Of a stretch of 64,000 nt of DNA, positions 16,206 to 58,151 are shown one piece after another (position 1 is the first letter of the stretch; every line of letters starts with the position of its first letter). The translations under genes and the position numbers were made by a program. The stretch spans positions 1-64,000 of the forward strand of contig NZ_JASZ02000006.1 of NCBI RefSeq assembly GCF_000735695.2, given 5' to 3'. This DNA is from Kaistella haifensis DSM 19056 (GTDB taxonomy: Bacteria; Bacteroidota; Bacteroidia; Flavobacteriales; Weeksellaceae). A model generated the notes under the pieces. That model had not been told where the DNA came from, searched no databases, and saw only the letters and a list, made by a program, of their open reading frames with translations.

Positions 16206-17458
16206 TTTTTCTAATGTTTAAACTTTTTCAAAGATAAAAAATATTATTGATATTTATTCTTGTCAATTTTAATTTTTCTTAAAACTTTATATTTGGTCAG
16301 GGTATTGTTCTGAAGCGTATCTTTTGGTTTGAAAGTTACCTTTACATTAGGGTTTACGGTGCTTATCAATTCGGCAATTTGCATTTTATCTAGTAACTTT
16401 TCATCTTCCATAAAGAAATTAATTCTTCCTTCTTCCAAATTTTCAGATTTCAAGAATTTGGTAATTTCTCGTCGGTTTTCAAGATAATTTCCTCGGGAAA
16501 GCCAAGTGAAAATAAAACCGGTCATTAAACTTAAAATGGTAATGCCATAGGTGAGTTTTCCGAAAATTTGATATATTTTTCTGAAATAAACCAACCAAAT
16601 TGGGAATGAAAATGGAGCCATTAATCGATAATCAATGGGATTTACCGAATAAAAATATTGTATAAAAAACGAACAAATAATCCCAATAATTCCTACGAAA
16701 ACAAAAAATCGTTCCGTTTCTGAAAGTTTATTTTTAATGAAAATAAAACCGATCAACAGAATATTCAACAAACCAATTCCGTAGATTCCGTAATTGATGA
16801 TTCCGCCCGCTGGATTTGCAATGTGAATGAACGGGTTGAATGTGGTCGCCATTCCCTGAACCAGCTCTATCAATAATTTTGATGTTGGATGAAGCCCGAT
16901 TTCTAAAAATTCATCGATATAGTCATCATTAAAATAATCGATGAAAAGAAATTTATACAACACCACATATCCAAAACCTACGAAAGCTGAATAAATAAAG
17001 GTTTTACCGTAAGATTTTCGATAATTTAAAACGCCATAAAGAAAGACCGCACCAATCATAAAAAGGGCAGGATAACGGATATTGTAAAGTACAAGTAGTG
17101 ATAAACTTAGATAGAAAAAAGCCTTAAAACCGGTGAGTTCGCCTATGATGATCTGCCTTCCAGCATAAAGAAAAAGAAAAACAATTGGCAAAATAAGGGA
17201 TTCGCTCATCGTGTAAGAAAATATTGAAATATAGCTGAAAAGCCCGCCCACAAGAATGGTTTCTTTTAAATAAAATCTTTTTTTCCAAGCAAAATAAACG
17301 ATGAAAAGATAAGAGAGAATTCCTATGAGTTTACTTGCCCAAAACAAATCCAAACCAAAAATCGTAAAAAATTTTAAGCTCAAAGGATAACCAAGTGGCG
17401 TCGTTGTATTATCAATAACCGGGAAAACTTCCGCCGTTCTCATAAATCGGAGCGAGTC

Positions 17459-17468
17459 GGGATTTACG
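17459..17468. repeat. Target-site duplication, left copy
   Basis: GGGATTTACG directly abuts the IS left end and is identical to the copy at 18867-18876. Confidence 0.9.
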
Positions 17469-17506
17469 TAGTCATGGTCGGAAGAAATTCCGGCCATTTT
17501 TTATGA

Positions 17507-18724
17507 CTAAGTTTTGAATACCTTTCCGGGGTCTCCGCCTGCAAAAATGATAAGTATTTCGGTAATCATATCGCGAAGTTCCATGGCAATGCGCCTTTTT
17601 GCGGTTTTGTAGCCTAAAGCGTTGGCTTTTTTGTAAATCAGCAAAAGCATTGAGGCAATCATCGTCATGTATACCATCACTTCGATGCCGTTTTTGTTGA
17701 GCGAGACCAAATGGCTCAGATTGAGTTCCTGCTTTAGGAATCTGAAGAAAACTTCAATATCCCAGCGTTTGCGGTAATAGTCAGCAATTTCCTTGCTGGT
17801 GAGTTCAAACTCGTTGGTTAAAAACCAAAACTCTTTCTTTGTTTTTTCGTTACGGATTACCACCAATCGAAAATCAGTTTCTACTTTTTCTTCGCGGTGA
17901 TGCACGTTTCCACGCTTGTTTTGTACCGGGATTCCGGTGTAGAGTTTTACTTTACTGTCTTTCAAGACTCTCCAGTCATCCCATCTCTCCAAACCTTGCG
18001 AAGTGAGATAGGATTCGACTTCTTCAAACTTGCGGTTTTCTTTAGAACGGACAATGAATTTTACCGACTTTTCTTCAAATTCCTTCATCACCCTTACCGA
18101 CTGCAAACCCCTGTCGATAACATAAATATTACCGTGATGTTCTTCCTTTTTTACCTGCTTTAGGATGGCTTCCGGCAGCGCATTGTCTTCTGCAGAATAT
18201 TTCTGTCCGGTAAAAACCTCTGCTCCCGAAGGCAGAACACCATCAAAAGAAAAACTAAACTTCACCAATTTTTTACCGCTTTTTTGGTCGATGCCTTCCT
18301 TGAGTTTTGAGCAGGTATCGGCGACAATAGTACTGTCCACCCGGATAAGGTTGTATTTCTCTATCTCGGCTTTATCGTAGAGTTGCGAAAATCTTCCGTA
18401 CATCTGCTCGTAGATTTCTTTGAAATAATTAGGGTCAATTTTGGAGAGCCTCTCCGAGATGGAGCTTCTGCGTACTTTTTCTTTCTCGCCCAAACCGAAA
18501 AGTGCTTTGAAGCCGCTGCTGTTAAATGTATCTTCAAGAGTTCTCTGGCTTAGTTTTTCATTGTCGAAGATACAGAAAAGCAAAAGGTAGAACATTTTCT
18601 TGCCATGAAGCACCTTGCTGTAATAGTCCACCTTCGTGGTTGCAGAAAGATGGCTCAAAAGAGCTTCGGGAATAAAATCCAAAACTTGTTTAAGAGAAAT
18701 CTTGTGGTCTTTAAATACTGACAT
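17507..18724 (-). CDS. IS4-family DDE transposase
   Basis: The 405-residue transposase has the DDE residues Asp130 (RVDSTIV), Asp204 (YVIDRG) and Glu324 in the IS4 YREK signature Y317-x2-R320-x3-E324-x6-K331 (YRKRWDIEVFFRFLK). An N-terminal domain of about 100 residues precedes the RNase H-like core. All catalytic residues are present, so it should be active. The gene points in the same direction as the host gene it interrupts, and its stop codon lies 9 bp before the ATG of the downstream host fragment. Confidence 0.95.
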   Translation of the reverse strand: MSVFKDHKISLKQVLDFIPEALLSHLSATTKVDYYSKVLHGKKMFYLLLFCIFDNEKLSQRTLEDTFNSSGFKALFGLGEKEKVRRSSISERLSKIDPNYFKEIYEQMYGRFSQLYDKAEIEKYNLIRVDSTIVADTCSKLKEGIDQKSGKKLVKFSFSFDGVLPSGAEVFTGQKYSAEDNALPEAILKQVKKEEHHGNIYVIDRGLQSVRVMKEFEEKSVKFIVRSKENRKFEEVESYLTSQGLERWDDWRVLKDSKVKLYTGIPVQNKRGNVHHREEKVETDFRLVVIRNEKTKKEFWFLTNEFELTSKEIADYYRKRWDIEVFFRFLKQELNLSHLVSLNKNGIEVMVYMTMIASMLLLIYKKANALGYKTAKRRIAMELRDMITEILIIFAGGDPGKVFKT

Positions 18725-18831
18725 AAGTTATTGATTATCAGATATAAAGATACGAAATAAAACCCATTAATCCAAATTAAATCATTGAAAATCAACAAGT
18801 TAACCAAAAAAAATCAAACAATTTTAAATAC

Positions 18832-18858
18832 AAAAAGTCGGAAGAAAAATCTTCCGAC
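18832..18858 (-). terminator. Intrinsic terminator inside the upstream end of the IS
   Basis: On the minus strand GTCGGAAGA and TCTTCCGAC form a perfect 9-bp stem around a 4-nt loop, followed by TTTTT. One arm is part of the terminal inverted repeat. It would stop transcripts entering from the host promoter before they reach the transposase. Confidence 0.7.
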
Positions 18859-18866
18859 CATGACTG

Positions 18867-18876
18867 GGGATTTACG
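18867..18876. repeat. Target-site duplication, right copy
   Basis: GGGATTTACG directly abuts the IS right end and is identical to the copy at 17459-17468. Confidence 0.9.
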
Positions 18877-19064
18877 CGTCCTTTTTCATTAAGCAAAAAC
18901 CGCAAAATGATCATCACTAAAGTTAGGATGAAGATGGAAATTTGCAAAAATTTTTCTTGAGTTCTATTTCGCATAAAAAATCGCTAATTCAACAAATTTA
19001 CAGATTCTTACTAAAAATCTGCATCATTAGCTGAATTAACAAAAGAATTTTTTGAGTTTTAGAA

Positions 19065-20018: not shown

Positions 20019-20897
20019 TTAATTTAGATGATTCCAAACCGTTTTAGAAATATCGGAAATCATTTTGCAATTTACTTCATAAGACTCCCTAGAATCCGAA
20101 ACGAGAACTGCAATTGCATACTTTTTTCCGTTAGGAAGGGTAATGATCGCGATATCGTTTTCGGCAACTGTTAGTCCGTCAATTTTTCCGGAAGATCCAG
20201 TTCTGTGTGCTACAGGTGTTCCTTTTGGGAGTTGTTCCACGATTTTATTGGTTCCGGTTGTAGTTCCGAGCATTATATTCATCAATAAATCTCGTGAAGT
20301 TTTTGGGAGAATTTTGGCTTTATCAAATTTTATGAGCGACTTCACCAATGATTCTGTCGTCGACCAATTTTCATACATACTTTTCCAGTCGGCGCTGTTC
20401 ATTCTTTCCTCATTCACTCGAATTTGAAAATCTTTGATTTTCTTCGAATCAATAAAATTTTGCACGATTTGCGTGCCTCCAATTACGTTCAGTATTTTAT
20501 CGGTCGCATTATTATCGCTATTTGCCACCATATATTTTAGTAGTTCGGAAAGCGTCATTTCATAATTTCCATTTGGAAATTTTTCTCTGAGCGGACTCCA
20601 AGTTTTTTCGTGCAAATCTTCTTTTTTAATAAAGATTTTTTGGTTTAAATTCAATCGTCCCTTATCTACCATATCCAAAGTTGCAAGCGCAATATGAAAC
20701 TTGAAAACACTCAGTAGTGGTAATTTTTTTCTTAAATTCTCATTATTAAATTCAAACGGGAAGTCGATTCCTTTTACAGAAACAGCAACGGTAGCTTTTT
20801 TACCTTCGGTAATTTTAGAAATTTCCTTTTTCAGTTCAGCTTTTTGTGCGAAAGTGAAAAAAGAGATTAGTATAAATAATAGCGTGAGTTTTTTCAT
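20019..20897 (-). CDS. bla: Class A beta-lactamase, subclass A2-like
   Basis: The 292-residue protein has a signal peptide (MKKLTLLFILISFFTFAQ) and the serine beta-lactamase motifs: S63-V-F-K66, S127-D-N129, and Glu163 in the omega loop (NEERMN, the E-xxx-N pattern). The third box, normally KTG, reads R-T-G at 232-234 (AHRTGSSGKID). The sequence resembles the chromosomal CGA/CIA/CME-type enzymes of Chryseobacterium and relatives, which hydrolyse penicillins and cephalosporins in the periplasm. It starts 2 bp after the Gfo/Idh gene and is probably translated from the same mRNA. No regulator is adjacent. Confidence 0.88.
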   Translation of the reverse strand: MKKLTLLFILISFFTFAQKAELKKEISKITEGKKATVAVSVKGIDFPFEFNNENLRKKLPLLSVFKFHIALATLDMVDKGRLNLNQKIFIKKEDLHEKTWSPLREKFPNGNYEMTLSELLKYMVANSDNNATDKILNVIGGTQIVQNFIDSKKIKDFQIRVNEERMNSADWKSMYENWSTTESLVKSLIKFDKAKILPKTSRDLLMNIMLGTTTGTNKIVEQLPKGTPVAHRTGSSGKIDGLTVAENDIAIITLPNGKKYAIAVLVSDSRESYEVNCKMISDISKTVWNHLN

Positions 20898-55004: not shown

Positions 55005-55952
55005 ATGGCAGTATTCGTATACGCAGAAAATATAAACGGAATTTACAAGAAGGCAGCTTTCGAAGCGGTTTCTTACGCTAAAGCAATTGCCGATCAATTG
55101 GGCGAAACCGTGAGCGCAATTACCATTAATCCTACAGATTCTTCAGATCTTTTGTATAAATATGGTGCAAATAATGTAATCAATGTGAAAGACGAAGGAT
55201 TGAAAAACTTCAGCGCGAAAGCTTACGCACAAGCAGTAAAAGAAGTTGCAAACGGCAATATCATCGTATTTCCTCACACCACTGATGCGTCTTCTGTAGC
55301 TCCAATGTTGGCGGTGATGAAAGATTTTTCATTAATTACCAATGTTTTGGAAGCACCAGAAAGTATTTCCCCGTTCCAAGTGAAAAGAAGAGCTTTTTCC
55401 GGAAAAGGGTTTATGCACGCGAAAGCTGATGCACAGGGTGTTATCGTTACCGTTTCTCAAAACGCTTTCGGTGTTAAAGAAAATCCAGTTGCAGGAACTG
55501 AAGAAGTAAAAGATCTTTCCGTTGCGAATGAGGATACCAAAGTGATTTCTCATGAACAAAGTTCCGGTAAATTAGACTTAAAAGAAGCAGAAATCGTAGT
55601 TTCCGCAGGTCGTGGAATGAAGGCTCCAGAAAACTGGGGAATGGTTGAGGATTTGGCAAACGTATTAGGAGCAGCAACTGCTTGTTCTAAACCAGTTTCC
55701 GATATCGGTTGGAGACCTCACTCCGAGCACGTTGGACAAACCGGAAAAGCAATTTCTCCTAATTTGTATATCGCAATTGGGATTTCCGGCGCGATTCAGC
55801 ATTTGGCGGGAGTAAATTCTTCAAAAACCATTGTGGTAATCAATAGTGATCCTGAAGCTCCTTTCTTCAAATCAGCAGATTATGGAGTTGTAGGTGATGC
55901 ATTCCAGATTATCCCGGAATTAACTCAGAAAATCAAAGCTTTGAAAGGATAA
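55005..55952 (+). CDS. etfA: Electron transfer flavoprotein alpha subunit
   Basis: The 315-residue subunit has the C-terminal FAD domain: VVSAGRGMKAPENWGMVEDLANVLGAATACSKPVSDIGW, HSEHVGQTGKAISPNLYIAIGISGAIQHLAGV and VINSDPEAPFFKSADYGVVGD. Length is standard. A strong terminator follows at 55976. Confidence 0.96.
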   Translation: MAVFVYAENINGIYKKAAFEAVSYAKAIADQLGETVSAITINPTDSSDLLYKYGANNVINVKDEGLKNFSAKAYAQAVKEVANGNIIVFPHTTDASSVAPMLAVMKDFSLITNVLEAPESISPFQVKRRAFSGKGFMHAKADAQGVIVTVSQNAFGVKENPVAGTEEVKDLSVANEDTKVISHEQSSGKLDLKEAEIVVSAGRGMKAPENWGMVEDLANVLGAATACSKPVSDIGWRPHSEHVGQTGKAISPNLYIAIGISGAIQHLAGVNSSKTIVVINSDPEAPFFKSADYGVVGDAFQIIPELTQKIKALKG

Positions 55953-56109: not shown

Positions 56110-57481
56110 ATGGATGTGTTTGTATGGAATATGGCGATTTCTTTTCAGGTACTTTTTCTTATTATAAGTGGAGTAATTTTCATTTACATTAGAGAAGGAA
56201 GCTTTAAATATTATGCGCTTTATATTGTTTTTCTATTAACATATCTGTTAAGCAGAAACGATTATTTTTACTATGCTTTTGAGCATTTTATCGCTCGATT
56301 TCTTACTCAAAATAACGCGGAAATTTTCACTTACATCGCATGTCTTTTTCTGCAAATTGTTTTTTATAATTACTACTGCAGATTTGCGCTACACTTTCTG
56401 GACCTCGATAAACATATTAGAAAATATTTCAACAGAATCATGAGAATCGTGAGGTATCTCGGTGGTTTATTTTTCGGTTGGGCAATCATTGCATATTATT
56501 TCAAAACTCCGCATTTGTACATGAAATTGTTCACATTTCTATATTTACCCATAATGCTCAGCATTTTTGTGATCACTTTTTACCATGCAATTCAACATTC
56601 CGGAAAACATAAAAATTTCTTTTTGGTTGGCGTTTGTGCATTTGTTTTTTTTGCTTTAATGGCGTTCAGCGGAAGTCGGATTTCTTCTTTGAATATGGAA
56701 AATCCAATCAAGTATTTCTATATCGGAATCATCATTGAAACACTTTTTTTTTAGTTTAGGTTTGGCTTACAAGGTGAAATTGATTAATGACGATAAAAAC
56801 CGAATTTTAATGCAAGTTACCAAACATCGACATCAACAGCAAATAAGCAAATTAAATGGAGTTTTGGAAGGCGAGGAAAAAGAAAGAAAAAGAATCGCCG
56901 AAGAGTTGCATGATGGAGTAGCAGGTGATTTAACAGCTATAAAATTTAATCTTTTAGCACTGAATTCTGAAGAGATGAAACCGAAAAACTCGTCGATTAT
57001 TAAAGAAATTACTGAAATTATCGACAATTCTTGTTTACAAATTCGGGAACTTTCTCACAATCTTTCTCCTTCTTCGATTACCCAGTTTGGATTGGTAAAA
57101 ACCATTGAAAACCTCTTTTTAAAAGGAGAAAAGTTTTATGGAATCCGGTTCAAATTTCTTTTCACTGGCGAAAAAATTCAATTTAATAAAGTAATTGAAA
57201 CGCATATTTATCGGATAATCCAGGAGCTCATCAATAATATCATCAAACATTCCGGAGCGAAAGAAGCTTTTATAGAAATCAACTACCATCATCCTGAGCT
57301 GAAAATTTCTGTTCGAGACAACGGAATTGGCTTTCAACCAAAACAAATCAGTAAAGGAATTGGTTTAAACAACATCGATTCGCGAATTCGTTTTTTGAAT
57401 GCCGATTTTAAAAAGATTGAAATAGAGAAAGGAAGCTGGTTTATCGTTGACATTTCTTTGGACAAAATAGTTGATTTGTAG
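56110..57481 (+). pseudogene. 7TM sensor histidine kinase split by a T9 frameshift
   Basis: The first half (56110-56754, 214 residues) is a seven-helix membrane sensor ending IGIIIETLFF then stop. The second half reads on in another frame from SLGLAYKVKLINDDKN and carries a HisKA_3 phospho-acceptor (EKERKRIAEELHDGVAGDLTAIKFNLLAL) and an HATPase (IQELINNIIKHSG; VRDNGIGFQPK; GIGLNNIDSRI), to 57481. The break is in a run of nine T at 56744-56752. With eight T the frames join seamlessly into one kinase of about 456 residues. A second-half start at 56735 exists but would lack all helices. Sequencing error, true mutation or slippage-based switching are all possible. No response regulator is adjacent. 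Confidence 0.85.
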
Positions 57482-57558: not shown

Positions 57559-58151
57559 ATGGATTACAAAAGACTAATCATACGTGGAATTTCATACAGC
57601 CAATCGCAATCCGGAGCGTACGCACTTCTGCTAGAAGATGAAGAAACCAACGTAAAATTACCAATCGTAATAGGAAATTTCGAAGCACAATCAATTTCTT
57701 TAGGTTTAGAGAAAGATTTAAACCCACCACGGCCTCTAACCACGATTTATTCGCAAAATTTGTGATTTCTACCAATTATAAAATCGAATCGGTGATTATT
57801 TATCAAATCGTCGATGGAGTATTTTTTTCACATATCAATTTTAAAGAAAATTCTACTGGCCAAGATTTAATTTTAGATGCAAGAACTTCCGATGCAGTAG
57901 CGATGGCAGTACGTTTTGATGCTCCCATATTTACTACGAAAGAAGTATTGTCGGAAGCCGGAATCCTATTGGAATTGGAACTTCCCGTAACAACTGAAGA
58001 AGATTTTGATGATCCTCAAACTGGTAGTTTACATCTGCTTTCTATGGAGGAGTTACTAAAAATTTTGGACGATGCAGTGAGAGATGAAGATTTCGATGCT
58101 GCCTTGGAAATACAAGAGGAAATTAAGAGAAGAGATAAAAAAATAGAATAA
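57559..58151 (+). pseudogene. DUF151 bifunctional nuclease with UVR domain, frameshifted
   Basis: The first frame encodes the start of a DUF151 nuclease (MDYKRLIIRGISYSQSQSGA ... LPIVIGNFEAQSISLGLEKD ... PPRPLT) and then stops at 57765. Reading one frame over from about 57740 gives HDLFAKFV and then ISTNYKIESVIIYQIVDGVFFSHINF, the rest of the domain with ARTSDAVAMAVRFDAPIF, and a C-terminal UVR motif (MEELLKILDDAVRDEDFDAALEIQEEIKRRD). The expected CTA-ACC-CAC has lost one C (57740-57742). The intact form would have about 197 residues. It may be a sequencing error. Confidence 0.85.

Follow-up and report, generated by a model that had tools for sequence, protein, structure and literature searches.

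A run of nine T in the genome assembly of Kaistella haifensis DSM 19056 breaks the gene for a 7TMR-DISM/HisKA_3 sensor histidine kinase into two ORFs, while the nearest relative found carries eight T at the aligned place and reads the gene as one uninterrupted ORF of 456 aa. The same gene is also broken, at other places, in five further genomes of the genus and absent from 13 more. We consider it about an even bet that the K. haifensis copy is a young pseudogene, i.e., that a dispensable orphan 7TM sensor histidine kinase was recently lost through non-programmed slippage in a T8 tract.

The gene lies in the window, i.e., the whole stretch of 64,000 nucleotides that was analysed (bases 1-64000 of contig C6, in a genome of 2.85 Mb and 96 contigs; Table 1). 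The upstream ORF scored above the Pfam cut-off for the membrane sensor domain (PF07695 7TMR-DISM_7TM, 46.6 bits vs. a cut-off of 29), and the downstream ORF did so for both kinase domains (PF07730 HisKA_3, 43.4 bits vs. 24; PF02518 HATPase_c, 39.7 bits vs. 26.4). The two ORFs are in different frames, with the start of the kinase ORF falling within their overlap, and a membrane-free kinase fragment could putatively be translated from the downstream ATG. The first-pass annotation had described this break and had proposed that losing one T would join the two halves; both points held, since the gene is indeed frameshifted relative to the intact protein of the nearest relative. The T9 run by itself is unremarkable, because 1.03 Mb of the same genome contains 27 A/T runs of length 9 or 10 that are fully enclosed by ORFs of at least 120 aa; it is the broken frame that is unusual.

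Table 1. Features at and around the split kinase gene, and other point disruptions found in the same genome (positions without a contig label refer to the window).
Feature	Position	Strand	Remarks
etfA-like gene	55005..55952	+	intact upstream neighbour; marks the slot for presence/absence scoring
5' half, membrane sensor	56110..56754	+	214 aa ORF; 7TMR-DISM_7TM domain; TAG right behind the T run
3' half, kinase	56735..57481	+	HisKA_3 and HATPase_c; 248 aa from TTG, 223 aa from first ATG
T9 homopolymer	56744..56752	+	T8 at the aligned place in G024 (L004) and G034 (L005)
bfn, bifunctional nuclease (PF02577)	57559..58151	+	frameshifted near 57741
Other point disruption	C3:67460-68112
Other point disruption	C3:25595-27508		accessory flavoprotein
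Other point disruption	C6:73483-73920		small gene

The closest relatives in the sets searched were Chryseobacterium sp. FF12 ('Chryseobacterium senegalensis'; G024 in the genus set, L004 in the other), which holds the intact orthologue, and Chryseobacterium sp. Marseille-Q5410 (G034 and L005, respectively). The orthologue of G034 has the tract at T8, yet is broken elsewhere by three lesions: two deletions (1 nt and 2 nt) disrupt its membrane half, and its kinase half is interrupted by an in-frame TAA. To judge from these lesions, G034 has lost the kinase gene by other routes despite its in-frame tract.

The state of the gene was then scored from ORF lengths and stops across 36 genomes of the genus (with K. 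haifensis itself as G000), using the slot between the upstream neighbour, which we take to be etfA, and bfn. The kinase gene was present in 23/36 genomes, being in a single reading frame in 17 and broken in six, and was absent from 13. Apart from the T9 run of K. haifensis and the lesions of G034, the broken copies comprised a frameshift within the membrane half (G021), a TAA stop (G006), a TAG stop (G010), and a stop about 28 aa short of the end (G028); the shortened kinase of G028 may retain partial function, and some of the five other lesions could be assembly errors. In all 13 genomes without the gene, etfB, etfA, and bfn stood side by side, the matched etfA and bfn ends lying about 120-330 nt apart, and tblastn revealed no kinase remnant at an E-value below 0.05 in any of them. 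Because the etfA-bfn slot is shared, these absences are read as losses. In a wider sample of 148 genomes of the family, 15 gave a match with an E-value of 1e-60 or lower; the genus accounted for 14 of these, and the remaining one was G111 (38% identity).

In a tree built from the DNA of etfA and bfn (36 rows, with G021 and G015 less than half filled and G003 and G010 on long branches), the six broken copies sat in six separate places. The broken label required six changes, at least five of which were forced by starred branches, and presence/absence likewise required six; the tree is unrooted, so gain and loss are not separable from it alone. As controls, the transporter gene 3' of bfn was found in 36/36 genomes with no internal stop (some rows were split by a gap yet lay in a single open frame), and another kinase of the K. 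haifensis genome was found in 31/36 genomes with no stops in 32 rows. With K. haifensis excluded, the kinase under study was broken in 5/22 genomes vs. 0/30 (Fisher, p = 0.010) or 0/35 (p = 0.006) for the controls, although these tests assume an independence of species that does not hold. A kinase on contig C34 was dropped as a control for being too patchy (a match in 6/36 genus genomes).

The first-pass annotation had named a sequencing error as the main alternative, citing a second frameshift 1 kb away. That frameshift is present in the sequence and falls in bfn, which runs from 57559 to 57741 in one frame and then to 58151 in another, with one C fewer than in both closest relatives. Since bfn is near-universal, this strengthens the case for error: 59 of 60 relatives each had one match free of internal stops, K. 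haifensis alone had the gene in two pieces, and bfn was intact in 35/35 other genus genomes. An error at bfn is likely because a real loss of this gene would be unusual, and the presence of both disruptions within 1 kb points to one local origin for the pair; random placement of 5-6 disruptions over 1.03 Mb would put two that close in about 2-3% of cases.

The idea that the assembly as a whole is frameshift-ridden was nevertheless rejected, since 290 of the 298 G024 genes matched over 1.03 Mb were scored as intact. Among the eight flagged genes, five were judged to be point disruptions, kinase and bfn included. Two flags were set aside as probable start-site artefacts, i.e., Bb_73869 (shifted over no more than its first 25 aa, likewise in G034) and Bb_57408 (a stop at aa 38, with G034 flagged too), and the gene at 16247-18974 was not counted as a point disruption, being interrupted by an insertion sequence. 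The census in the reverse direction flagged 1/298 genes (a stop at aa 38 of 297). The disrupted accessory flavoprotein gene is the second of two succinate dehydrogenase/fumarate reductase flavoprotein genes in the K. haifensis genome and carries an in-frame TAA; with the other copy intact and a full-length match to its G024 counterpart (L155:14672-16588) in only 6/36 genus genomes, its stop was dropped as proof of errors in essential genes. The small gene, which lies outside the window (L075:9483-9920), has an in-frame TAA where G024 has a Lys codon.

Comparison with the two closest relatives also brought out two further features of the window. The insertion sequence just mentioned is an IS4-family transposase gene (17507-18724, minus strand) sitting inside a gene that is an intact 440-aa ORF in both G024 and G034, and for which no Pfam match was found. 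On the same strand, a class A beta-lactamase gene (20019-20897) had the CGA/CIA family as its best NCBIfam model, scoring below the cut-off for that family and above that for subclass A2; the syntenic regions of both relatives gave no match to it.

The stability of comparable tracts was assessed against G024. Over 0.37 Mb of alignment, 45 of 47 coding A/T8 tracts were unchanged in length, the exceptions being the kinase tract and one at C2:175401, just before a likely start codon, while outside ORFs the length had changed in 14 of 42 A/T8 tracts. Because of this difference, a slip in a T8 tract is an ordinary event where selection is weak. Selection on the kinase gene itself was not absent, as dN/dS against G024 was about 0.10 in the membrane half and about 0.12 in the kinase half. 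The best single segment of the kinase, which takes in a few codons beyond the frame break, had a dN/dS of 0.149 (rank 278 of 302 genes, median 0.060), i.e., high for this genome but not neutral. On these values, selection acted on the gene through most of the divergence, and the break is therefore either recent or not real.

If the break is recent, the young pseudogene would derive from an orphan 7TM sensor histidine kinase with which the genus can dispense: a replication slip would have expanded T8 to T9 by one base, and the frame would have been broken with no programmed restoration. If it is not real, the strain has T8 and an intact kinase, and poor coverage of this stretch would have produced the frameshift in bfn as a further error. 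We regard such a sequencing or assembly error as quite possible, at somewhat below even probability: the singular state of bfn, its closeness to the kinase break, and the purifying selection on both kinase halves all speak for it. On the other side stand the fairly clean remainder of the assembly, the length stability of the 45 other coding A/T8 tracts (with the one further change lying before a likely start codon), and the private substitutions of the window, which were not raised between 56.0 and 58.0 kb (500-base bins gave 0.018-0.052 per base, around a mean of 0.041). Moreover, a real lesion is the slightly better bet than an error because the same gene is independently broken in 5/22 other genomes. 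A fixed pseudogene, which the first-pass annotation had listed only as an outcome that would speak against its own proposal of a phase switch, is what fits the genus-wide pattern best.

That proposal, in which reversible T8/T9 slippage would turn the kinase on in some cells of a population and off in others, found no support. Points in its favour are a coding tract in which one base flips the frame, two halves that are otherwise open, and a low dN/dS. However, the alignment of orthologues that had been put forward as a check gave T8 in only six of 22 (G034, G024, G019, G027, G031, and G009) and T5-T7 in the other 16, with no tract longer than T8; the shorter tracts stem from substitutions in and around mostly conserved Phe-Phe-Ser codons. 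None of the five other broken orthologues in the genus, G034 with its three lesions included, is broken at the tract, and the nonsense mutations and clean absences seen elsewhere are irreversible by slippage. As T8 is this scattered and no other copy is broken there, the tract seems to be a side effect of codon choice rather than a maintained switch, in a genome where runs of this length are common in genes. Phase variation is therefore very improbable. Among the papers listed for Chryseobacterium and phase variation, the titles and abstract openings showed nothing on this kinase gene. Still more improbable is a leaky rescue, in which RNA polymerase would slip on the T9 run so that part of the mRNA encodes full-length kinase; the purifying selection kept in the 3' half would agree with it, but the intact relatives are in frame with T5-T8 and give no hint of an evolved slip site. 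It also seems unlikely, though less so than either of these, that selection has acted repeatedly against the orphan kinase across the genus, possibly during isolation and culture; loss-of-function alleles of this one gene would then arise and spread repeatedly, as with GacS in pseudomonads, and its signalling would be costly in some common condition.

Should T9 be real, the young pseudogene of K. haifensis would belong to a compact natural series of about six young breaks in one sensor gene within a single genus, suited to asking what makes the loss of a signalling gene so frequent. Should it be an error, the result is a warning on two adjacent gene calls, kinase and bfn. In either case, the phase-switch claim is not to be carried forward on the present basis.

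As a phase switch, the kinase would be of a known kind, resembling the BvgS sensor kinase of Bordetella pertussis, for which a C6/C7 tract and mixed C6/C7 cultures have been shown (PMC1891110). In both, an additional base within a coding homopolymer disrupts the frame of a sensor kinase gene; unlike in BvgS, the tract here consists of T, is not conserved, and was read from a genome assembly, and orthologues of the gene are broken at other places. Interruption exactly at a homopolymer is likewise shared with tssM of Citrobacter rodentium, where transcriptional frameshifting at an A11 run rescues the gene and slippage has been demonstrated (PMC4256274), whereas the kinase has a T9 run read from DNA. 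The Gac/Rsm system of pseudomonads is similar in that a sensor kinase pathway has been inactivated several times independently; spontaneous mutations there, including those in the GacS sensor, are reported to enhance motility and root colonisation (PMC7695008); in contrast to the benefit reported there, the kinase losses described here are seen between species, through comparison of their genomes.
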